Below, piece by piece: positions 1-8,666 of a DNA stretch of 64,000 nt (position 1 is the stretch's first letter; the number at the start of each line of letters is the position of its first letter). Source of the stretch: Acidipropionibacterium virtanenii (lineage in GTDB: Bacteria > Actinomycetota > Actinomycetes > Propionibacteriales > Propionibacteriaceae); assembly GCF_003325455.1 (NCBI RefSeq), contig NZ_CP025198.1, positions 310,001 to 374,000 on the forward strand, in the 5' to 3' direction. Below the pieces are notes generated by a model, which searched no databases, had not been told where the DNA came from, and saw only the letters and a program-made list of their open reading frames with translations. The position numbers were made by a program, and so were the translations under genes.

Positions 1-363
1 GGCACGGTCGGTGAGAGATACCAGTTCGACGACGCGATCCACCTCGGCCGGGGTTTTGGAGTCGGGTATCCGGTGCAGCCAGCACAAGTAGGCCAGGTGC
101 TCGCGCACCGTGAACCGTGATCTGCCGAGGTTCTCCTGGGGGCAGTAGCCCAGCTGTTCGCGGATCGCCGTCCCGGTGCGTCCGTCGAGCTCGACGATTC
201 CCGACGCCGGCTGCAGGGTGGCGATGGCGCGCAGCAGTGAGGACTTCCCCGCGCCATTGGGGCCCAGCAGCGCGTGGAAGCCCTCATCCAACCGCCAGGA
301 CACCGCGTCGACGGCGGTTCGCCTTCGGTATTGCACCGTCAGCTCGTCGACAGTCAGTGTCAT
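1..363 (-). CDS. ABC transporter ATP-binding protein (C-terminal part lies outside the window)
   Basis: The minus strand reads in from the window edge and encodes about 121 residues of an ABC ATPase N-terminus. A Walker A motif GPNGAGKSS is at about residues 34-42 and a Q-loop YCPQE at about 73-77. Walker B and the signature would lie beyond the edge. The start is ATG at 363, with GGAG about 11 nt upstream. It is the third minus-strand gene after a secreted protein and a 42-aa membrane peptide, so it may drive an export or immunity transporter whose permease would be outside the window. The substrate cannot be read from this fragment. Confidence 0.85.
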   Translation of the reverse strand, partial: MTLTVDELTVQYRRRTAVDAVSWRLDEGFHALLGPNGAGKSSLLRAIATLQPASGIVELDGRTGTAIREQLGYCPQENLGRSRFTVREHLAYLCWLHRIPDSKTPAEVDRVVELVSLTDRA

Positions 364-578
364 CTGTGCATGTTCTCCTATCAACTGGCGCGGTTGAAGA
401 CGATCTGATCGGAACACTGGTGGGCGAGGTGGTCGCTGTGGAAAGGACCCATTCGTTCTACGGCGCTGCCGGTCACGGTAGTTCGGTCTTGGACGCTTCA
501 CGAAATGAGTTCGGGTGTGGTTCACATAGACCCTGATGCCGCTGGAACTCACCCATCACTTGGATGGCTACGAAAGGG

Positions 579-707
579 CTACTGATTTCTCTCATTCTTG
601 AGATACTTCAGAAGCCTGTACCCAATGACGCCAAGAATGCACAATACGAGGAGTGTGATAATACAGCTGGCAATCACGAGAATAAGAATGGCATTTTCTG
701 TAGCCAA
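579..707 (-). CDS. 42-aa single-span membrane peptide
   Basis: This short ORF starts at TTG behind a strong GGAGG (8-nt spacer) and encodes a peptide that begins MATENAILIL and ends KYLKNERNQ. Residues about 6-30 form one hydrophobic segment, followed by a short basic tail, so it should sit in the membrane with the tail in the cytoplasm. It begins only 15 bp after the stop of the AT-rich secreted protein gene, which suggests one transcript. Its N-terminus resembles that of the 58-aa membrane peptide at 3881 (MATENAI against MGTESAI). I know no family for it. The role could be immunity, a transporter accessory subunit or a sensor; this is inference. Confidence 0.6.
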   Translation of the reverse strand: MATENAILILVIASCIITLLVLCILGVIGYRLLKYLKNERNQ

Positions 708-722
708 GAGACTCACCTCCTC

Positions 723-1412
723 TTATGCACTCACGAGAGAAGCGGTGGCATGGTCTGGAGTGACTCCAACCTTGAGATAGCTACTTCCGCTGTATACACC
801 GCCATAGGTGAGCTGGCCTCCGTACTTCTCGACGGTTGAACTCATCCATACAAAGTGAGGGTTCGACACGACAGCGCCTCTGGAAGCGTACGCACCGTTC
901 CAGTGCTTTGTGATTGTTTTCGGGCCGAAGTTGAATCTGAAGCTCCAGGTGATAACTGGAGTTTTCGCTTGTGCATAACAATTCTGGTAGGTATGCGCCG
1001 CTACCTTCTTGCAGCTCGTTACGGAGGCGGATCGGGTTCCGAGGTTCCCATTAGTTTTCGCGCTTGGATCAGAAACTTCTATCACTGACATTGATCCATC
1101 TGGATAGGTAGAGATCGTTTGCGTTACGCCATTGGCTTTCACTTCTTTTGTCGCGGATGGAGAGCCGCCTTTAGCTGCGTCGGGAAGGATGCCTTTTTCA
1201 AGGTTGCTGATGATTTTTGAGATTTGTTGCTCTGAGGCGCCATATTCGGAGAGGTAACTTGATACGGACTGCCGGTCGTCTGAGGCCAGTGGATTTGGTC
1301 GAGGTGCTCCTGAATCCGCCGACGCCGACAGTGTCGAAGACGACATGGCAAGTGAAACTATCGCCGAAATGACTGCAATTCTTGAGAGCGTTTTATCCTG
1401 GAACTTCTTCAC
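723..1412 (-). CDS. Secreted protein of unknown function (229 aa)
   Basis: I place the start at GTG 1412 because AAAGGA stands 7 nt before it; an upstream in-frame ATG at 1430 has no ribosome site. The product starts MKKFQDK and has a hydrophobic signal segment ending around ASA at about residue 33. The mature part has a Ser-rich N-terminal half and a C-terminal half rich in Gly, Tyr and Ser, with two Cys (SCKK, QNCYAQ) that could form a disulfide. Codon use is clearly more AT-rich than in neighbouring genes, which suggests horizontal origin. I recognise no domain. It is followed by a 42-aa membrane peptide and an ABC ATPase, and a shared palindromic element lies about 90 bp upstream. Confidence 0.7.
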   Translation of the reverse strand: MKKFQDKTLSRIAVISAIVSLAMSSSTLSASADSGAPRPNPLASDDRQSVSSYLSEYGASEQQISKIISNLEKGILPDAAKGGSPSATKEVKANGVTQTISTYPDGSMSVIEVSDPSAKTNGNLGTRSASVTSCKKVAAHTYQNCYAQAKTPVITWSFRFNFGPKTITKHWNGAYASRGAVVSNPHFVWMSSTVEKYGGQLTYGGVYSGSSYLKVGVTPDHATASLVSA

Positions 1413-1500
1413 TGAAATGTCCTTTCGCATTGGCTAGGCACTGACAGGATGGACTCTGCTCCTGAAGTCGATGAGGCGTCAAGAGGTTCAGGCGAACTCT

Positions 1501-1523
1501 GCCCGATCGGGCAATTGTCGACA
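1501..1523. promoter_or_regulatory. Double-palindrome element, copy 1 (putative response-regulator operator)
   Basis: The palindrome GCCCGATCGGGC is followed by one base and then ATTGTCGACA, which contains the palindrome TGTCGACA. The reverse complement of the copy at 3734-3756 matches at 22 of 23 positions. Both copies have the same orientation relative to the gene they precede: the secreted-protein gene here and the 58-aa membrane-peptide gene there. A response regulator is encoded between them. Binding by that regulator is inference. Confidence 0.6.
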
Positions 1524-1561
1524 TTTCGTACCCCGGGCCGTTGGAAGCCGTCCCCGGGAGC

Positions 1562-1567
1562 TATGAT
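1562..1567 (+). promoter_or_regulatory. -10 box of a leaderless promoter
   Basis: TATGAT ends 6 nt before the response-regulator ATG at 1574, so the mRNA should begin at or next to the start codon. Confidence 0.55.
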
Positions 1568-1573
1568 TCGGCT

Positions 1574-2218
1574 ATGAGCGGAGGGGTTATCAGAGTCGGG
1601 ATCTGCGACGACAGCGATGTGGTACGTCGTCAACTGGGGGTCTATCTCTCGGGTGCCTCGGACCTGCGGGTGTGCGGGATGTACGGCTCCGGGGCTGACG
1701 CCATCGCCGGCGTTTCCCGGGATGACATCGAGGTGCTGCTGCTCGACGTCCGGATGCCCGGTATGACGGGGCCCGCCGTAGCTTCGGGGCTGGCGGCGTC
1801 AGGGAGCGGCTGCAAGATCCTGTATGTCACGTCGTATCCCGATGAGGTGCCGGTGCGCGGTGCCCTGCGGCAGACGGTGCTCGGTGCGTTGACCAAGGAT
1901 GTGAGCCCTCAGAACATGGTCGCGGCCGTCCGCCTGGTGGCGTCCGGCGTCTCGTTGCTGGCTCCTGAGTTCATCCGGCAGTCCGCTGCGGGCGGGCAGG
2001 GCCTGGTGGACTGGCTCGCCGACCCGCGGGAACGTGAGGTGCTCAGGCTCGTCCAGACAGGTTCGACGAATGCGCAGATCGCCGAGGAGCTGAACATGTC
2101 GGCGTCGTGGGTGAAGCAGACGGTCTCGGCGCTGTGCCGGCGGGCCGGCGTGAGAGGCCGGGCGGGGCTGGCGGCGTACTCAGGAGATGCCGTCGTCGGT
2201 CATGGTGATCGGGATTGA
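1574..2218 (+). CDS. NarL/FixJ-family response regulator
   Basis: This is a 214-aa two-domain regulator. The receiver domain (about 5-120) has the acidic pair CDDSD near the N-terminus and the phospho-acceptor Asp58 in LLLDVRMPGM. A LuxR-type helix-turn-helix (about 145-205) contains the typical segment PREREVLRLVQTGSTNAQIA. The ATG at 1574 is chosen because TATGAT lies 6 nt upstream, indicating a leaderless mRNA. Its 3' end overlaps the convergent histidine kinase gene by 39 bp, an unusual arrangement for a partner pair. Likely targets are the flanking units that carry the shared palindromic element; this is inference. Confidence 0.88.
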   Translation: MSGGVIRVGICDDSDVVRRQLGVYLSGASDLRVCGMYGSGADAIAGVSRDDIEVLLLDVRMPGMTGPAVASGLAASGSGCKILYVTSYPDEVPVRGALRQTVLGALTKDVSPQNMVAAVRLVASGVSLLAPEFIRQSAAGGQGLVDWLADPREREVLRLVQTGSTNAQIAEELNMSASWVKQTVSALCRRAGVRGRAGLAAYSGDAVVGHGDRD

Positions 2219-3280
2219 CACCGTCGCCGACCAGTAGCCGTCCGACAGACGGGTCTCGAGGGTGCCGTTGATCCCCTCGGCCCGTTCTCGCATGCCGATG
2301 ATGCCAAGATCGTCTCCGTCGTAAACGGACTCCGTGGCATTCCTGAACGAGACGGCGAGCCTGGTCCTCGACGCTTTCACACTGACTTCGCACGGTTCGG
2401 ACGGATTTCCGTGCCGGATGATGTTGTTGATCGCCTCATGGCTGATACGGCCCATTGCATTCGATATCACCGGGGAGATGGTCTCGACGTCACAATCGGT
2501 GTAGATGTCCAGATTGAAGCCGGCGTTCGAGAGGGCGTCATGGCCCCGCTGGAGTTCCTGGGAGAAGGAGACCGCGGGTGAGGTGCGACCCACGCGCAGC
2601 AGTTTGACGAAATTCGTGACATAGACCGAGCTGCGCCGGCTCCGGGCTGCGATATCGGTCAGTGCCGAGTCGCGATCGATCCCGGGGTCGATGCGTGCAT
2701 TCTCGGCCGCCATGGTGATGAGGGCCAACTCATGGGTGACGTTGTCGTGCAACTCGGCGGCGATCTCCCGGCGCTGATTCTCGGCACGGGCGACGAGACG
2801 TCGACGTTCGGAGACCTCGGTGTTGCGCAGAGCCAGGCCGATCACCCATGGAAGGGCGTAGAAGCCGAGCCACAGCACGGTGGCCTGCGCATCCTCCGCC
2901 AGCGTCGTTGTGTTGTTGAAGGACATCCACAGGGACACGACATATCCCCACAGTGATGTCGCCGCCGCGGTCCAGAACTCCTCATGCCAGGCGCACGACA
3001 GGATGACGATCATCGGGGCATAGAGGGTCATGCCAACTAGGTCGTCGGGCAGCAGCGCCAGACCGCCGAAGCCGACGCAGGCGATCACGGCCCCGATGCG
3101 GGGATGCCAGGCCGTGAGTGCCGCGCCGACGCAGGCTGCCAGTTCCACCAACAGGGCGACCACGGCCTCGTTGCCCGGCCGGAAGGGCACGACGTCCATG
3201 GCGAGCAGCAGAAGTGCCAAACCCACCTCCACGGCTCCGCCACCCAGGAGGCGACGTAGGGGGCTGGTCCGGGTGCTCAT
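2180..3280 (-). CDS. NarL-type sensor histidine kinase
   Basis: The 366-aa protein has an N-terminal membrane part with about five hydrophobic helices (residues about 15-150), a HisKA_3 dimerisation region with phospho-acceptor His178 in AAELHDNVTHEL, and a C-terminal ATPase domain. That domain has an N-box-like SHEAINNIIRHG and a glycine motif GIIGMRERAEG. The large membrane region and very short loops suggest it senses a membrane or intramembrane signal. The start at 3280 is supported by a -10 box TACGAT 7 nt upstream. It converges on and overlaps the response regulator gene, so the pair is transcribed from separate promoters. Confidence 0.87.
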   Translation of the reverse strand: MSTRTSPLRRLLGGGAVEVGLALLLLAMDVVPFRPGNEAVVALLVELAACVGAALTAWHPRIGAVIACVGFGGLALLPDDLVGMTLYAPMIVILSCAWHEEFWTAAATSLWGYVVSLWMSFNNTTTLAEDAQATVLWLGFYALPWVIGLALRNTEVSERRRLVARAENQRREIAAELHDNVTHELALITMAAENARIDPGIDRDSALTDIAARSRRSSVYVTNFVKLLRVGRTSPAVSFSQELQRGHDALSNAGFNLDIYTDCDVETISPVISNAMGRISHEAINNIIRHGNPSEPCEVSVKASRTRLAVSFRNATESVYDGDDLGIIGMRERAEGINGTLETRLSDGYWSATVSIPITMTDDGIS

Positions 3281-3287
3281 GACCATG

Positions 3288-3293
3288 ATCGTA
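3288..3293 (-). promoter_or_regulatory. -10 box of a leaderless promoter
   Basis: Read on the minus strand, TACGAT lies 7 nt before the histidine kinase ATG at 3280. Confidence 0.5.
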
Positions 3294-3407
3294 AGGGTTC
3301 TGGCCGATGAGGCGGGGAACTGGGGGGTCGGGAATCCCCGGAGGGGTCCTTCCGGCGGCCGGGAGTGGGACGATGCGTTGACGATCTGGTTCGACGATGG
3401 AGCAGTC

Positions 3408-3578
3408 ATGATGATTCCCCGGTTGCGACGTCTGGCCGTCATGGCCCTGGCCGCAGTGCTGCTGGCGGTCAACACCCCCGTGGTGAGTCATCCCGAGGCC
3501 TTCTGCGACAGACATCCATGGTGGCCCGGTTGCCATCGGCACGTCGCGGCCGCCCCCGCCGGGGACCTGGTGGCCTGA
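3408..3578 (+). CDS. Small secreted Cys/His-rich peptide (about 56 aa)
   Basis: Two consecutive ATGs (3408, 3411) follow GGAG. The product begins MMIPRLRRLAVMALAAVLLA, a classic basic-plus-hydrophobic signal peptide with likely cleavage near VVSHPEA. The mature peptide of about 25-30 residues holds two Cys and several His and Trp in CDRHPWWPGCHRH, which could make a disulfide loop or bind a metal. It sits divergently from the histidine kinase gene. Being short, secreted and next to a membrane sensor, it could be a signal peptide or sensor partner. That role is speculative; the signal peptide is visible. Confidence 0.5.
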   Translation: MMIPRLRRLAVMALAAVLLAVNTPVVSHPEAFCDRHPWWPGCHRHVAAAPAGDLVA

Positions 3579-3733
3579 GGCTCAGGTTTCGCCGCAGATG
3601 AACTCCCGGGCCACCTCGCGCCCTCCAACACGTCGGACGAACGTGGAGCCTGAATGACCCGTTGATGCCAGGCGTTCGTGCGTGAGATGGTGCGCCCGGC
3701 AGCCAGATCTCTGGACCGGTCGAAGAACCCATT

Positions 3734-3756
3734 TGTCGACAATCGCCCGATCGGGC
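3734..3756. promoter_or_regulatory. Double-palindrome element, copy 2 (putative response-regulator operator)
   Basis: Here the palindrome TGTCGACA comes first and GCCCGATCGGGC second, so the element points to the 58-aa membrane-peptide gene 125 bp downstream. A further half-like site, TCCGATCGGGA, follows at about 3765-3775. Only one base differs from copy 1 at 1501-1523. Confidence 0.6.
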
Positions 3757-3794
3757 ATTCTTCTGTCCGATCGGGAAGAGTTCGATCCATTCCC

Positions 3795-3823
3795 TCGACG
3801 GAGCAACGTCGGCGTCGTAGTGT
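3795..3823 (+). promoter_or_regulatory. Candidate promoter for the 58-aa membrane peptide
   Basis: A -35-like TCGACG (3795-3800), a 17-nt spacer and a -10-like TAGTGT (3818-3823) lie downstream of the double palindrome. This layout suits activation by a bound regulator. Confidence 0.35.
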
Positions 3824-3880
3824 CCCTGAGTGTGGTGAAGTCGGCCGATATGGTCGACAGGAATGTGAATGGAGAGACCC

Positions 3881-4057
3881 ATGGGAACTGAAAGTGCGAT
3901 TGCCGCCCTCTCGATCGGCGGACTGGTGGTGGGCATTGTCGTCGCCTGTGTGGTCCTCATCAGTCTGATCGTCACCGCGTACAACACGTCGAAGATCCGC
4001 CGGGAACTCCAGGAGATCCGGCAGCTGTACACCCGCGAGGACCGTCCCCTGTCCTGA
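3881..4057 (+). CDS. 58-aa single-span membrane peptide
   Basis: The product starts MGTESAIAAL, has one long hydrophobic span (about residues 6-34) and a charged helical tail, KIRRELQEIRQLYTREDR. The ATG at 3881 is preceded by GGAGAG with a short 4-nt spacer; an in-frame ATG at 3869 is an alternative. The N-terminus and overall plan resemble the 42-aa peptide encoded at 579-707, and both units carry the same upstream palindromic element. No family is recognised. It may be a membrane accessory or immunity component of the same system. Confidence 0.55.
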   Translation: MGTESAIAALSIGGLVVGIVVACVVLISLIVTAYNTSKIRRELQEIRQLYTREDRPLS

Positions 4058-4205: not shown

Positions 4206-4243
4206 GAGCATGCTTGGTCAGTTCTTCGTCGCTGGAGGCCGTC

Positions 4244-4504
4244 ATGCCTGCAACCACCCTCAACATTCGTATCGATCCTGAGCTCAAGGAACAGGTGGAT
4301 CAGGTCGCCAGGAGCCTGGGGCTCTCGTCCTCGGCGGCGTTCAACATCTTCGCACGGCAGTTCGTCGCCTACCGTGGGTTCCCCTTCCCGGTCGTCGCCC
4401 CGGTACCGACGGAGGCGGACTTCAGCCGTCAGATGGACGCGGTTTTCGACCGTATGAGGGCCGGACATAGCCAAGAGCACAATCCCATCGAAGAGCCGCG
4501 TTGA
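4244..4504 (+). CDS. relB: RelB/DinJ-family antitoxin
   Basis: This is an 86-aa protein whose N-terminus TTLNIRIDPELKEQ is a typical ribbon-helix-helix DNA-binding strand. It continues with helices through SSSAAFNIFARQFV and a toxin-binding C-terminal region. The ATG at 4244 follows GGAGG with a 5-nt spacer. A palindromic operator lies upstream. Immediately downstream is only a short remnant of a YoeB-type toxin, so the antitoxin is orphaned and may act as an autorepressor or protect against another toxin. Confidence 0.85.
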   Translation: MPATTLNIRIDPELKEQVDQVARSLGLSSSAAFNIFARQFVAYRGFPFPVVAPVPTEADFSRQMDAVFDRMRAGHSQEHNPIEEPR

Positions 4505-4596
4505 GAAAGTTGCGGATCGACCAGGCGAACCGGCTCGTGTACAAAGTCGAGGACAGGGTCCTCTACATCGTCTCCTGTCGCGGGCACTACCGGTAA
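4501..4596 (+). pseudogene. Remnant of a YoeB/Txe-type mRNA interferase
   Basis: A 31-codon ORF starting at TTG and overlapping the antitoxin stop encodes NRLVYKVEDRVLYIVSCRGH followed by YR. This matches the C-terminal segment of YoeB-family toxins, where the final His-Tyr pair belongs to the active site. The N-terminal two thirds of a normal toxin (about 85 aa) are missing, so no active RNase fold is expected. This looks like inactivation of the toxin with retention of the antitoxin. Confidence 0.65.
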
Positions 4597-4613: not shown

Positions 4614-6008
4614 TCAGTACTTCTTGCCCGGGTTGAGGATGCCGTTCGGGTCGAAAAGCGCCTTGATCCGGCGCTGCAGGTCCAGGGCCGCTGGAGCCAT
4701 CTCGGTGTCCAGGGCGGGCAGCTTCTCCAGCCCCACGCCGTGCTCGCCCGACATCGTCCCGCCCAGCTCCTGGGCCAGCCGGCTCAGCGTCATGACCGCC
4801 TCATCGGCCCTCGCCCGGGCCCCCTCGGCCGGCGTGTACGCCACGATCGGGTGCAGATTGCCGTCGCCCACATGCCCGCCCAGGGCGATCGTGACGTCGT
4901 AGGCGTTCTCCACCTCGGCGACTCCTGCACTGAAGGCAGCCAGTGCACTGCGGGGCACCGCGATATCGCCCTCCACCGACCCGCCGAGCAGTCCACGGGC
5001 GCTCGGCTGGAGCTGGCGCCTGGCCTCCAGAATGGCCTCCAGCTCCTCGGCGCTGGTGGCCCGCTGCACCGTCGTCGCCCCGGCGTCGGTGAAGATCTCC
5101 TCGAAACTCGTCAGGTCCTCCTCGGCTCCATCGCGGGCATCGGTGACCGCGAGCGCCCACGCGTTCGCCTCGGCGGGGACTGGGGCATCGGGAATGTGCT
5201 TGCGGATGGCCTCCAGGCACCGGCCGTCCATGAACTCCAGCCGGGCCGGGGTGCGTGATCCCGATGCGATCCGGTTGGTGGCGGCGAGTCCCTGCGCGAC
5301 GGAGGGGAAAAGCCCCAGCACGCCGCGCTCGGGTCCCGGCGCCGGCAGTAGCTTGACGGTGATCTCGGTGATGACCGCCAGAGTCCCCTCCGAGCCCACG
5401 ATGAGCCCGGTGAGATCCAGCCCGCCGACGGTCTTGATGGTGTTGGGGCGGGTGCGCAGGATCGTGCCGTCGGCCAGCACCACCTCCAAGGACCGCACCG
5501 ACTCGCGGGTCACGCCGTACTTGATGCAGCGCATCCCGCCGGCATTGGTGGCCACATTGCCGCCCAGTGTGGAGATCTGCGCCGACGCCGGATCGGGGGC
5601 GTAGAACAGGCCCCGGCTCGCGGCGGCCGCAGCAAGGTCGGAGACGATGACACCGGGCTGGGCCACCGCGATCATGTCGTCGGCGTCGATGCCGACGATC
5701 CGGTCCATCGCGGTGAGGTCCAGCAGGATCGCCCCGTCGACGGCTGACGCCGCCCCCGCCACGCCGGTGCGGGTGCCCTGCGGGACGACCGGGATCCGAT
5801 GGGCGTTGGCGTATGCCAGCAGCTGCGACACCTGTTCCGTCGACGCCGGCCGGGCCACCACCAGGGGGTTCGGGTCGCCGGGCATCGCCGAACGGTCGGT
5901 GCGGTGTGCGGCGAGGGCGGTGGGGGAGTCGTCGAGCACGACGCCGGGAAGGGCGGCACGCAGTGCGGCGACCGAAGCGGGCGCGGGATCCGTGGCAAGT
6001 GCGGTCAT
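4614..6008 (-). CDS. FAD-linked 2-hydroxyacid oxidase (GlcD/D-lactate dehydrogenase type)
   Basis: A 464-aa flavoprotein that should oxidise a D-2-hydroxyacid such as D-lactate or glycolate to the 2-oxoacid. The FAD-binding PCMH domain shows PQGTRTGVAGAAS (about 62-75) and TLGGNVATNAGGMRCIKYG (about 130-150). The C-terminal substrate domain has GGHVGDGNLHP and SGEHGVGLEK, which carry the conserved metal and active-site histidines. The ATG at 6008 follows AGGAG. No GlcE/GlcF partner is adjacent, which favours a single-subunit D-lactate dehydrogenase. The next gene upstream is an aminotransferase. Confidence 0.85.
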   Translation of the reverse strand: MTALATDPAPASVAALRAALPGVVLDDSPTALAAHRTDRSAMPGDPNPLVVARPASTEQVSQLLAYANAHRIPVVPQGTRTGVAGAASAVDGAILLDLTAMDRIVGIDADDMIAVAQPGVIVSDLAAAAASRGLFYAPDPASAQISTLGGNVATNAGGMRCIKYGVTRESVRSLEVVLADGTILRTRPNTIKTVGGLDLTGLIVGSEGTLAVITEITVKLLPAPGPERGVLGLFPSVAQGLAATNRIASGSRTPARLEFMDGRCLEAIRKHIPDAPVPAEANAWALAVTDARDGAEEDLTSFEEIFTDAGATTVQRATSAEELEAILEARRQLQPSARGLLGGSVEGDIAVPRSALAAFSAGVAEVENAYDVTIALGGHVGDGNLHPIVAYTPAEGARARADEAVMTLSRLAQELGGTMSGEHGVGLEKLPALDTEMAPAALDLQRRIKALFDPNGILNPGKKY

Positions 6009-6067
6009 GGGAATCTCCTGTGGTGAGGTGGGTGCCAGGTGATGTCCGGCCTCCCTCCGGAAAGTTG

Positions 6068-6116
6068 GCGTTCGTCCCGGAATTCCAGGACCAACGTCAA
6101 CTTCCTGGACGAACGC
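6068..6116. repeat. Hairpin across the 3' end of the aminotransferase gene
   Basis: GCGTTCGTCCCGGAA (6068-6082) pairs with TTCCTGGACGAACGC (6102-6116) with one mismatch and a 19-nt loop. It contains the stop codon of the upstream aminotransferase gene and may act as a transcription or processing signal before the oxidase gene. Confidence 0.5.
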
Positions 6117-7389
6117 GGGGCATGGTGGCGGGGGCCTGGAGTTTCTGGAGGCGCTCGACCGCTTGGTGGATACTGCTCGCCGATTTGCAGTGGGCGAATC
6201 GCACCAGTGAGCCCATTCTGGCCGCGTTGGGCCCCGCGGGGCTGGTGAAGGCCGAGACGGGGACGGCGGCCACACCGATCTGTTCGGGCATCTGGCGGCA
6301 CAGTTCGGCGCCGTCCTCGAAGCCCAGCGGGGCGGCGTCGGCGACCGTGAAGTAGCCGGCGTCGGGGACGACGACGTCGAAGCCCGCGGACCGAAGCCCC
6401 GAGACCAGCAGGTCGCGGCGCTCCTTCAGGGATTCCCGCACCTGGTCGAAGACCTCGTCGCCCAGGCCCAGCCCGGCCGCCACGCCGGTCTGGAAGGGGC
6501 CGCCGCCGGCGAAGGTGAGGAACTGCTTGACGGTGCGGATCGCGGTGACCAGCTCCGGCGCGGCGGTGATCCAGCCGATCTTCCAGCCGGTCACCGAGAA
6601 GGTCTTGCCGGCCGAGGAGATCGAGATCACGGTGCCGCGGGCCCCGGGCAGGCTCGCCATCGGGACGTGTGGCCCGGCGAAGGTGAGGTGCTCGTAGACC
6701 TCGTCGGTGATCACGTAGGCGCCGTGCTCCTTCGCCACCGCCAGGATCTGCTCCAGGTCGGCGCGCCCGAGCATGGTGCCGGTGGGATTGTGCGGGGTGT
6801 TGACGATGATCGCCCGGGTGCGATCGGTGACCGCCTGGCGCAGCGCTCCCAGGTCGAGGCGGAAGCCGGTGGGCCGGCCCGCGGCGTCGCGGTCGAGGGT
6901 CAGCGGCGCGGGCCTCTGCACACCTGCGGCCAGCGCGATGACCGCGGCGTAGGCGTCGTAGAAGGGGTCGATGGTGACCACCTCCTGGCCCGGCTCCACG
7001 AGAGCCAGAAGGGTCGCGGCCATCGCCTCGGTGGCGCCCATCGTCACCTGGATCTCGGTGTCGGGGTCGACGTCCAGGCCGTAGAAACGCTTCTGATGAG
7101 CGGCGATCGCGGTGCGCAGGCCAGGGATGCCTGGCAGCGGCGGGTACTGGTTGCGGCCGGCTGCGATGGCGTCGCCGGCGGCGTCGAGCACCTGTGCCGG
7201 GCCCGGGTCGTCGGGGAATCCCTGCCCGAGATTGAGCGCGCCGGTGGCGGTGGCCAGGGCCGTCATCTCGGTGAAGATCGTCGGCGCCACCCGGCCGTCG
7301 GCGGCCAGCAGCCCGGCTCCCGCGGCGGTGCGTCGCCAGGGGCCGGTGATCGGTGCCGGTGTGCGGAGATCCTCGGCGTTCTCACTCAT
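6097..7389 (-). CDS. Class I/II PLP-dependent aminotransferase
   Basis: The 430-aa fold-type I enzyme has the PLP lysine in SSAGKTFSVTGWKIGW (about residues 255-270), the substrate-site segment NTPHNPTG (about 190) and a DEVYEHL metal/PLP contact. The order and the GQGFPDDPGP N-terminal motif resemble the DapC / methionine / kynurenine aminotransferase subgroup. The exact substrate cannot be fixed; N-succinyl-LL-diaminopimelate or methionine are plausible. The gene stands upstream of the hydroxyacid oxidase on the same strand, with about 90 bp between them and a hairpin at the junction. Confidence 0.85.
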   Translation of the reverse strand: MSENAEDLRTPAPITGPWRRTAAGAGLLAADGRVAPTIFTEMTALATATGALNLGQGFPDDPGPAQVLDAAGDAIAAGRNQYPPLPGIPGLRTAIAAHQKRFYGLDVDPDTEIQVTMGATEAMAATLLALVEPGQEVVTIDPFYDAYAAVIALAAGVQRPAPLTLDRDAAGRPTGFRLDLGALRQAVTDRTRAIIVNTPHNPTGTMLGRADLEQILAVAKEHGAYVITDEVYEHLTFAGPHVPMASLPGARGTVISISSAGKTFSVTGWKIGWITAAPELVTAIRTVKQFLTFAGGGPFQTGVAAGLGLGDEVFDQVRESLKERRDLLVSGLRSAGFDVVVPDAGYFTVADAAPLGFEDGAELCRQMPEQIGVAAVPVSAFTSPAGPNAARMGSLVRFAHCKSASSIHQAVERLQKLQAPATMPRVRPGS

Positions 7390-7445
7390 CGACCCAGTGT
7401 CTCAGGAGCCGGGCACCGAGGCTATGAATGTTCAGCCCGTGAGCG

Positions 7446-8666
7446 TCATAGCTCGGCGAACGGGATCTCCGGGTCGGCCAGCCGGGCAGGATCGACGGAC
7501 CTCCTCGCCGCGATGATCGGCTTGACCGCGTCGATGACATCCCACACGTTGACGTTCATCACCGCGGTGATGCGGTTCGCGTCGGTCCAGAAGGCCACGA
7601 ACTCCCGCTTGTCGAGGCTCCCGCGGATCACCAGGGAGTCCTCCTCCCCGGGCGAGCCGTAGTACTCCATGCCGACGTCGTACTGATCGCTGAAGAAGTA
7701 CGGCAGCTCGTCCCAGGTGGCGTTCGCGCCGAGCAGATTCGTCACCGCGACCGCCGGCTGGTTCAACGCCGTGGCCCAGTGCTCCACCCGGATCCTGGTG
7801 CCCAGGACGGGATGGTCAACATTGGCGATGTCACCGACGGCGTAGATGTCCGGGTCGCTGGTGGCCAGTCCGGCGTCGACCAGCACGCCGTTGTCCACAG
7901 CCAGCCCGGCGGCCTCGGCCAGTTCCGCATTCGGCACCGCGCCGATGCCCACCAGCACCGCGTCCGCCCCGATCGTCTCCCCGCTGGTGAGCTTCACCCC
8001 GGTGGCCCTGCCCGCCGTCGCGGTGATCTCGGCGACTGAGGTGCGCAGCCGGAAGGCGACGCCGTGCTCGCGGTGGAGCTTCGCGTAGACGGTGCCCATC
8101 CGGTCTCCCAGGGCGGCGGCCAGCGGAATGGTACTGGGAGCGACGACGGTGACGACGCCGCCCTTCGCCCGTGCCACGGCCGCGGCCTCCAGGCCGATCC
8201 AGCCGGCGCCGATCACCACCAGGCGCCGGTCCTGGCCGAACTCGGCGCGCAGCGACTCGGCATCCTGCCTGGTCCGCAGCATGTGGACGCGTTCCGCACC
8301 GGCTCCGGGCACGGTGAGCGTGCGGGGGCTGGATCCGGTGGCCAGGACGAGCTTGTCGTAATGGAGCGGGGAACCCTCATCGAGGGTGACGGTGTGCCTC
8401 GCGGTGTCGATCGCGGTGGCCCGGGTGGACAGCCGCAGGTCGATCTGGTTCTCGTCGTACCAGTCGCGAGTGTGGGTGACGGCGTCCTCGAAGGAGTCGC
8501 TGCCGGCCAGGAACCCCTTCGACAGCGGTGGTCTCTCGTAGGGCAGGTTCTGCTCCGCTGCGATGAGGGTGACGGTCCCGCCGAAGCCCTGTTCCCTCAG
8601 CGCCTCGACGGTCTTCGCCCCGGCCAGGCCTCCGCCGATGACAACGACGTCTCGTGGACTGCTCAT
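7446..8666 (-). CDS. FAD-dependent ferredoxin/rubredoxin reductase-like oxidoreductase
   Basis: A 406-aa Pyr_redox_2 protein with an N-terminal FAD-binding GGGLAGAKTVEALR, the PYERPPLSKGFLAG segment typical of the ferredoxin-reductase (ThcD/BphA4) subgroup, a central NAD-binding GAGWIGLEAAAVA, and a C-terminal reductase domain with DQYDVGMEYYG. FAD closure is visible in YAVGDIANV. It should pass electrons from NAD(P)H to a ferredoxin or a P450/dioxygenase partner, but no partner gene is close. The ATG at 8666 follows AAGGAG with a good spacer. Confidence 0.87.
   Translation of the reverse strand: MSSPRDVVVIGGGLAGAKTVEALREQGFGGTVTLIAAEQNLPYERPPLSKGFLAGSDSFEDAVTHTRDWYDENQIDLRLSTRATAIDTARHTVTLDEGSPLHYDKLVLATGSSPRTLTVPGAGAERVHMLRTRQDAESLRAEFGQDRRLVVIGAGWIGLEAAAVARAKGGVVTVVAPSTIPLAAALGDRMGTVYAKLHREHGVAFRLRTSVAEITATAGRATGVKLTSGETIGADAVLVGIGAVPNAELAEAAGLAVDNGVLVDAGLATSDPDIYAVGDIANVDHPVLGTRIRVEHWATALNQPAVAVTNLLGANATWDELPYFFSDQYDVGMEYYGSPGEEDSLVIRGSLDKREFVAFWTDANRITAVMNVNVWDVIDAVKPIIAARRSVDPARLADPEIPFAEL

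Follow-up and report, generated by a model that had tools for sequence, protein, structure and literature searches.

The first 4,057 bases of a 64,000-nucleotide stretch of the Acidipropionibacterium virtanenii genome (hereafter the window; bases 310001-374000 of the single 3,432,872-base contig) contain a HisKA_3 histidine kinase, a NarL/LuxR-type response regulator and a 56-amino-acid (aa) secreted-type precursor with the core CDRHPWWPGC, together with a palindromic element shared by several transcription units (Table 1). This locus is probably a quorum-sensing switch for a bacteriocin cluster, consisting of a disulfide-ring pheromone, a kinase, a regulator and a palindrome regulon of bacteriocin, export and immunity genes. 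The case is read from sequence and is built on gene content, operator sites, promoter-like geometry, a peptide family, the pairing of this peptide with kinases, and peptide-sensor co-divergence. The source genus belongs to Propionibacteriaceae and is represented by five genomes in our collection (G and L numbers below are our handles for genomes and loci).

In the proposed mechanism, the 56-aa precursor would be exported by the Sec route and trimmed, and its ten-residue core (C-x3-P-x2-P-x-C in the family) would close to a small disulfide ring. This ring would accumulate with cell density and bind the polytopic sensor of the neighbouring HisKA_3 kinase, which would phosphorylate the convergently encoded NarL-type regulator. 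The regulator would bind one or two TGCCCGATCGGGCA palindromes about 60 and 81 base pairs (bp) before the transcription start and recruit RNA polymerase as a class I activator. Three units would be switched on. The first encodes a lactococcin-972-like protein, presumed to act as a bacteriocin, together with a DUF1430 permease and an ATP-binding cassette (ABC) ATPase; the second comprises the genes for the 42-aa and 229/235-aa proteins and another ABC transporter, and the third encodes a 58-aa membrane peptide.

Shared operator and promoter geometry

The initial annotation had noticed a nearly identical element upstream of two outer units. This element is real, as positions 1500-1523 and 3734-3757 match at 23 of 24 bases in opposite orientation. 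Searched as a 24-bp pattern (TGTCGACAATNGCCCGATCGGGCA) with at most 3 mismatches, it has three copies in the 3.43 Mb genome, against none for the reversed control pattern, and these precede a bacteriocin operon left of the window (genome 307153-307176), the 235-aa unit and the 58-aa gene. The description of the system as self-contained in positions 1-4057 was thus wrong, and with the third copy the unit is larger than that. The bare palindrome TGCCCGATCGGGCA is found exactly only twice in the genome, both times at the locus, and with at most one mismatch in nine places, four of them at the locus.

Among 197 family genomes, the element with at most 3 mismatches occurs in 14, while the reversed control gives one match (G055). 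Sites with 0-2 mismatches are confined to four of the five genus genomes, and ten other genomes have one 3-mismatch site each; an identical one, GGTCGTCACTTGCCCGATCGGGCA, with the whole palindrome kept, is found in G064, G048 and G099 (genus g6). In the fifth genus genome the palindrome stands twice before the regulator and once before the 58-aa homologue, in the latter case followed by TTGACA and TATGGT.

The start of the -35 box lies 24 bp from the palindrome centre for the 235-aa unit, for the 58-aa gene (proximal palindrome) and also in the fifth genome. The best -35 box within 15-39 bp of the proximal palindrome centre was sought at 14 sites from four species. Its start lay at 24 bp in ten of them, at 22 bp in two, and at 30 and 37 bp in the others; since many of these sites are orthologs, the 14 cannot all be counted as independent. 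Tandem palindromes are spaced by 20-21 bp. The -35 geometry therefore puts the palindrome centres near -60 and -81, which is the geometry of a class I activator.

From the sequence we infer that the response regulator binds the shared element. The alternative, that the operator belongs to another regulator and that the peptide-kinase-regulator trio and the bacteriocin cluster are mere neighbours, is very improbable in our view: A. jensenii and A. thoenii do each have a 2-mismatch site on a contig other than that of the regulator, as this alternative would allow, yet the palindrome stands shortly before the regulator gene in all five genus genomes, and in front of a paralogous regulator gene of A. 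thoenii there is a tandem palindrome whose flanks are altered, TACCCGATCGGGTA. In A. thoenii two regulator-kinase pairs lie side by side (L042:1048-1080, 5634-5665, 5732-8446), one under TACCCGATCGGGTA and not TGCCCGATCGGGCA, and they are possibly a natural specificity pair.

The genes behind the element have in common a small secreted-type protein, which an ABC transporter often accompanies. For example, an I36-inhibitor-like secreted protein (42.4 bits; cut-off 21.1) with an ABC transporter follows the element in A. jensenii, while A. thoenii has a shortened I36-inhibitor-like protein and also a 161-aa secreted-type protein without family behind it.

The apparent bacteriocin operon left of the window

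The region left of the window was read in L009 (genome 296001-315000). An apparent operon there encodes a 101-aa lactococcin-972-like protein, a DUF1430 permease and an ABC ATPase of the lactococcin-972 export type. The 101-aa protein scores 36.6 bits for Pfam Lactococcin_972 (PF09683), above the cut-off of 22, and 18.1 bits for NCBIfam TIGR01653, below the cut-off of 32.1. The permease passes the DUF1430 cut-off (29.1 bits; cut-off 28.2), and the best NCBIfam matches of permease and ATPase are below theirs (TIGR01654, 53.6 against 189.35; TIGR03608, 207.8 against 254.85). The operon resembles lactococcin 972 systems in its small Sec-type bacteriocin, DUF1430 permease and L_ocin_972-type ABC ATPase; it differs in that all three proteins fall below the NCBIfam cut-offs and that the shared element ties it to the peptide-kinase-regulator trio.

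Downstream of the lactococcin-972-type ABC ATPase, fragments of another HisKA_3-type kinase are spread over more than one frame (L009:6659-7481, and L038:4733-5861 in the sister genome G003). In the Acidipropionibacterium metagenome-assembled genome (MAG; L046) the intact regulator-kinase pair adjoins this ATPase, and the switch may originally have been located there. The DUF1430 permease of G003 is broken into several frames (L038:6697-8755), and BLAST listed no bacteriocin homologue in the fetched stretch, which may mean that the operon is decaying in that genome.

A family of CxxxPxxPxC peptides

The initial annotation proposed a self-contained peptide-signalling system within positions 1-4057. 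The signalling part is supported and can be made sharper, in that the candidate signal is the 56-aa peptide, whose family is found mostly beside HisKA_3-type kinases; the confinement to these positions does not hold. Homologues of the 56-aa peptide occur in four of the five genus genomes (the source included; two in A. thoenii) and have in common C-x3-PWWP-x-C-[HQ]-R. A profile of four sequences found weaker relatives in other genera, in 28 of 198 family genomes at E<=0.01, with a comparable ten-residue loop at the end of many of their open frames. With a 31-row profile at E<=0.001, matches were found in 41 of 197 family genomes, 31 of 141 good assemblies and 7 of 29 genera; at least two of the 41 are chance matches (G116, and G088, the sole genome of its genus).

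The loop C-x3-P-x2-P-x-C is present in 32 of 33 curated peptides and is one residue longer in the other. Among these 32, Phe or Leu predominates at position 4, Trp at position 7 and Gly at position 9, and position 6 is occupied by ten different residues. The curated list left out G168, G122b, G065, G123b, G105, G024, G104 and G016; since the loop is present in, or at the end of, G105, G122b and G016, the core was in part a criterion for choosing the 33. Cores that lie near a stop codon and follow a hydrophobic leader were found at 32 peptides and one other place in the 446,225 bases of 41 loci, as against none in 270,633 background bases (six cores without leader). The one other place is a second, tandem peptide in G127. 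Tandem peptides of one genome, with the cores CDILPWLPPC and CKHMPWLPGC, lie at L073:6587-7010.

The CxxxPxxPxC peptides form a family absent from Pfam and NCBIfam: 31 members searched against both gave three stray matches only, of one member each, at E 0.0066 or weaker. At order level 57 of 391 genomes match at E<=0.01; 18 of these lie outside the family, and there no match adjoins a kinase. At class level 7 of 394 match at E<=0.001, six of them outside the family and none with a core in the locus of about 3 kb. An extension of the peptide beyond Propionibacteriaceae was set aside, as no out-of-family match had a kinase (order) or a core (class).

Kinase and regulator partners

The regulator belongs to the NarL/LuxR class, with Response_reg at 59.2 bits (cut-off 30.2) and GerE at 36.9 bits (cut-off 23.5), and its best matches in four sister genomes are 60-85% identical. 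The kinase passes the HisKA_3 cut-off (PF07730; 27.2 bits against 24). For its ATPase part HATPase_c_2 alone was matched, at a weak E=0.13, and the UhpB model aligns to residues 217-422 far below cut-off. It has about five hydrophobic spans and relatives of 46-73% identity in four sister genomes. A scan with a kinase alignment gave seven loci, five of them in A. thoenii DSM 20276, A. jensenii DSM 20535 and the MAG, and two remote ones (23-26% identity). By crude hydropathy, 2-6 hydrophobic spans precede the catalytic His in the kinases paired with the peptides, and a large extracellular domain is not evident.

Partners were searched with kinase and regulator profiles built from the source genus, around peptide hits picked by score and not by neighbours. 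Of the 41 in-family hits fetched, 31 have a HisKA_3-type kinase no more than 250 bp away; in 30 of these 31 it lies on the divergent side, and in G027 it is on the same strand. Some distances of 0 come from over-long open frames. By score, such a kinase accompanies 28 of 31 hits at E<=1e-4 and 3 of 10 weaker ones. In contrast, none of the control loci (7-11 kb), which are those of all 18 out-of-family hits of the order-level search, has a kinase, and two have a regulator, more than 3 kb away.

Twelve further in-family matches lay outside the 41-hit set; G094, G017, G116 and G088 entered a set fetched later, and eight (E about 0.001-0.01) were never included. In this later set, made up of all the places of the 31-row profile search that were left, a kinase stands within 800 bp in 13 of 16 places, counting all of them, with G094 a near copy of G162 (in the model) and G116, G172b and G088 chance matches. 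In A. jensenii and A. thoenii further peptides, with the core CNLFPSFPSC, lie about 0.6 kb from another kinase.

The peptides diverge together with the sensors. Among 31 loci selected for a ten-residue core and a kinase no further than 800 bp away, in which related genomes are not independent, peptide and sensor distances correlate at r=0.49, and the partial Mantel value given the kinase domain is 0.285 (p=0.001). The corresponding value for peptide and kinase domain given the sensor is 0.021 (p=0.40). When the source genus is left out (27 loci), the partial value is 0.256 (p=0.004).

Evidence against the switch and alternative roles of the peptide

Several observations weigh against the proposed switch. 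A faster clock of the sensor compared with the kinase domain may mimic co-divergence. A kinase within 250 bp is lacking for ten of the 41 in-family hits, which are mostly weak matches: it stands at 775 bp in one, at 3.2 kb in G003 (a decayed copy) and at 4.4 kb in another, and was not found in seven, one of which has a regulator at 11 bp. The working kinase of G003 is separated from the peptide gene by 4.7 kb. The regulator profile found a regulator in 30 of the 33 curated loci and none in three. The out-of-family controls are weaker matches (E from 9e-4), many of them leader-only, and therefore control for chance or leader-only matches and not for equal scores.

Relatives with kinase or regulator and without the peptide genes, which the initial annotation regarded as contrary to its proposal, are weakly represented by one genome. 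A. jensenii has the regulator, no PWWP-type peptide was found in its draft, and its kinase is cut short, lacking the first 86 residues; another peptide of the family stands there beside another kinase. The truncation (L039:14635-16830) coincides with the beginning of a transposase-like open reading frame (ORF; named by eye) near the contig end, and the 58-aa gene of A. jensenii is at the end of another contig.

A cleavage-like AxA site is missing in 7 of the 33 precursors, including that of the source genome. Such precursors might stay anchored with the loop outside, which, together with the NCBIfam listing of LiaS (far below cut-off) for the kinase, would suit a membrane-tethered accessory subunit tuning an envelope-stress kinase, as with LiaS-type kinases of the same broad family. 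We consider this role unlikely, as the ten-residue loop is the conserved part and leaders show little conservation across genera (comparison of 31 of the 33 peptides, without G175 and G109), the variability of loop position 6 is expected of a specificity position, and two tandem peptides are present in one genome.

The pheromone reading also does not extend to autoinduction in the source genome, which is not claimed because no palindrome precedes the peptide gene there (dyad test, p=0.997). Among 33 loci chosen by E-value, an upstream tandem dyad reached p<0.05 in only eight (about 1.7 expected), four of them at p<0.01, and four of the eight have 21-bp spacing; general autoinduction was dropped on this count. 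In G003 the peptide gene starts about 90 bp from the tandem operator. In the genus g8 (G050, G066, G131, G161 and G172, five related genomes with a common Tad neighbourhood), dyads of the form CCAnnTGG or GCCAnnTGGC were seen by eye, which is no more than suggestive of autoinduction.

Genes beside the peptide-kinase module

The genes adjoining the module differ between genera while peptide and kinase stay. In Acidipropionibacterium they are bacteriocin and ABC genes. The g8 genomes have a SAF-domain CpaB-like gene, and three or four of them also carry Tad-pilus-type genes (T2SSE, T2SSF and TadE); G040, G101 and G136 have large proteins with signal-like starts, and G128, G162, G175 and G179 have adaptor-like proteins with a peptidoglycan-binding domain. 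These clusters come from BLAST and from the neighbouring genes listed, with Pfam applied to one or two members each, and cover 34 loci (G168, G122b, G065, G123b, G105, G024 and G104 excluded). From their position, the neighbouring genes would be regulated by the module.

The peptide could instead be a small antimicrobial (bacteriocin), with kinase and regulator sensing damage or the peptide and controlling immunity. Lantibiotic systems use their product as inducer, the peptide sits in a bacteriocin cluster in the source genome, and an ABC ATPase of some kind is present in 15 of the 34 loci, which may be little above chance given 95 ABC ATPase matches in the source genome. An antimicrobial role seems to us doubtful, and more so than a tethered subunit: no cluster other than that of the kinase is present in all 34 loci, and in other genera peptide and kinase stand beside Tad pilus genes or large proteins of no assigned function.

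For the pheromone itself, we lean, on balance, to a broader view, in which many Propionibacteriaceae use disulfide-ring decapeptides (C-x3-P-x2-P-x-C) read by co-diverging HisKA_3 kinases. The module would be exchangeable, wired to bacteriocins in Acidipropionibacterium and to Tad pili, adaptor-type export or large surface or secreted proteins in other genera, and position 6 would set lineage specificity.

Relation to known peptide signalling systems

By type of kinase and regulator, the nearest known machine is ComX-ComP-ComA of Bacillus; the peptide here is of a different sort, and the scanned neighbours in the source genome include no modifying enzyme. Both have a polytopic HisKA_3 kinase, a NarL-type regulator, a small peptide gene adjoining the kinase and a Trp in the peptide, while the peptide here has a hydrophobic leader and two invariant Cys and its gene is divergent from the kinase in 30 of 31 close pairs. 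The combination by which ComQXPA loci are recognised, a HisKA_3 kinase and a NarL regulator beside a small pheromone-like gene, is found here; unlike ComQXPA, no isoprenyl transferase (ComQ) is among the Pfam-scanned neighbours in the source genome. Agr systems likewise have a small ring-shaped peptide (a ring is predicted here) and a polytopic kinase; they differ in that the regulator here carries GerE and not LytTR, the ring would be a disulfide and not a thiolactone, and no AgrB-type membrane peptidase is among the scanned neighbours in the source genome. RRNPP systems also encode a short exported peptide beside its receptor gene, with the difference that the receptor here would be a membrane kinase and not intracellular. 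We file the system as a variant of peptide-pheromone two-component signalling, outside ComQXPA and Agr.

Among the matches listed from titles and abstract openings of open-licence literature, no description of the CxxxPxxPxC family or of propionibacterial peptide quorum sensing was found; subscription journals lay mostly outside this search, and absence of a prior description in print is not proven by it. Five core strings, e.g. FPWWPGC, had no occurrence in the open-licence papers searched, and the word "quorum" does not appear in the searched text of the acidipropionici genome paper. If the switch is true, it would provide a signal, receptor, regulator, operator and bacteriocin regulon in food-associated bacteria. 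It would make propionibacterial bacteriocin regulation directly testable, with 45 loci (32 + 13) having a kinase within 800 bp of the peptide and signals that could be ordered as ten-residue synthetic peptides, and it would explain the changing cargo around one signalling core.

Layout of the locus and its cargo

All genes named in the initial annotation are present (ATPase, 42-aa, 235/229-aa, regulator, kinase, Cys/His peptide and 58-aa). Regulator and kinase are convergent and their 3' ends overlap by 39 bp. The start of the ABC ATPase was placed from homologues opening with MTLTVDELTV.

Table 1. Features of the locus (positions in the window; L-numbered positions refer to fetched loci)
Feature	Position	Strand	Evidence or remark
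Operator TGTCGACAATTGCCCGATCGGGCA with palindrome TGCCCGATCGGGCA	1500..1523	minus	3 genome copies; exact copies in three sister genomes
Operator TGTCGACAATCGCCCGATCGGGCA (3734-3757) and second palindrome TGTCCGATCGGGAA (3764-3777)	3734..3777	plus	centres 20 bp apart
Promoter-like -35 TTGACG (1477-1482), -10 CAGAGT (1453-1458), for 235-aa unit	1453..1482	minus	spacer 18
Promoter-like -35 TCGACG, -10 TAGTGT, for 58-aa gene	3795..3823	plus	spacer 17
NarL/LuxR-type response regulator, proposed operator binder	1574..2218	plus	Response_reg + GerE
HisKA_3 histidine kinase, polytopic membrane sensor, proposed peptide receptor	2180..~3286	minus	PF07730
56-aa secreted-type precursor, proposed peptide pheromone, core CDRHPWWPGC	3408..3578	plus	C-x3-P-x2-P-x-C family
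58-aa single-span membrane peptide behind operator	3881..4057	plus	nearly genus-specific
AT-rich secreted-type protein, 235 aa, or 229 aa from GTG at 1412	723..1430 or 723..1412	minus	ORF
42-aa single-span membrane peptide, cargo of operator-bearing unit	579..707	minus	ORF; TTG start 8 nt behind AGGAGG
ABC transporter ATPase, cut by window edge	1..363 (L009:13665-14552)	minus	PF00005, 91.2 bits (cut-off 25)
GT87-type glycosyltransferases of sister genomes, behind operator	L038:11757-13046, L039:12091-13413, L040:8869-10191		

The 235-aa and 42-aa genes have guanine-cytosine contents of 0.507 and 0.419 against 0.683 for the window, as would be expected of acquired cargo. A profile search of the 229-aa protein had been suggested at the outset; no family above cut-off was found for it in Pfam, NCBIfam or PHROGs, and likewise none for the 42-aa peptide (scanned as a 45-aa ORF and as 42 aa). 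The 235-aa protein has no solved relative (best E=0.84) and no plasmid match, and its single-sequence structure model is uninformative (predicted local distance difference test 36.1). It is matched in six other family genomes, with an internal stop in two, and might be a bacteriocin- or effector-like cargo.

In three sister genomes, GT87-type glycosyltransferases replace the 42-aa and 235-aa genes ahead of the same ABC ATPase. That of G003 is 74% identical to each of the other two and was assigned by Pfam at 124.6 bits (cut-off 25; G003 only). The 42-aa and 235-aa genes thus look like exchangeable cargo at a fixed promoter. The permease that the initial annotation expected left of the window is probably a 560-aa ORF without Pfam family directly downstream of the ATPase (L009:11986-13668; genome 307986-309668), as its membrane partner.

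The 58-aa peptide is found in 6 of 197 family genomes, that is, in all five of the genus and as one weak match, and the palindrome stands upstream of its gene in four of the five genus genomes, with a contig end in the fifth. A kinship of the 42-aa and 58-aa peptides, which have the common start M-x-T-E-x-A-I, was set aside, the five-row alignment showing little identity.

Two further gene pairs lie in the surroundings. A PIN-domain gene between the bacteriocin operator and the 560-aa ORF (L009:11330-11973; 45.2 bits, cut-off 23.6) possibly forms a VapBC-like pair with an apparent small upstream partner gene. At window positions 4214-4596, a RelB-like antitoxin gene (35.2 bits; cut-off 22.4) is followed by a 31-aa fragment that matches the 80-position YoeB model over positions 55-80 only; the toxin-antitoxin pair seems to have decayed.

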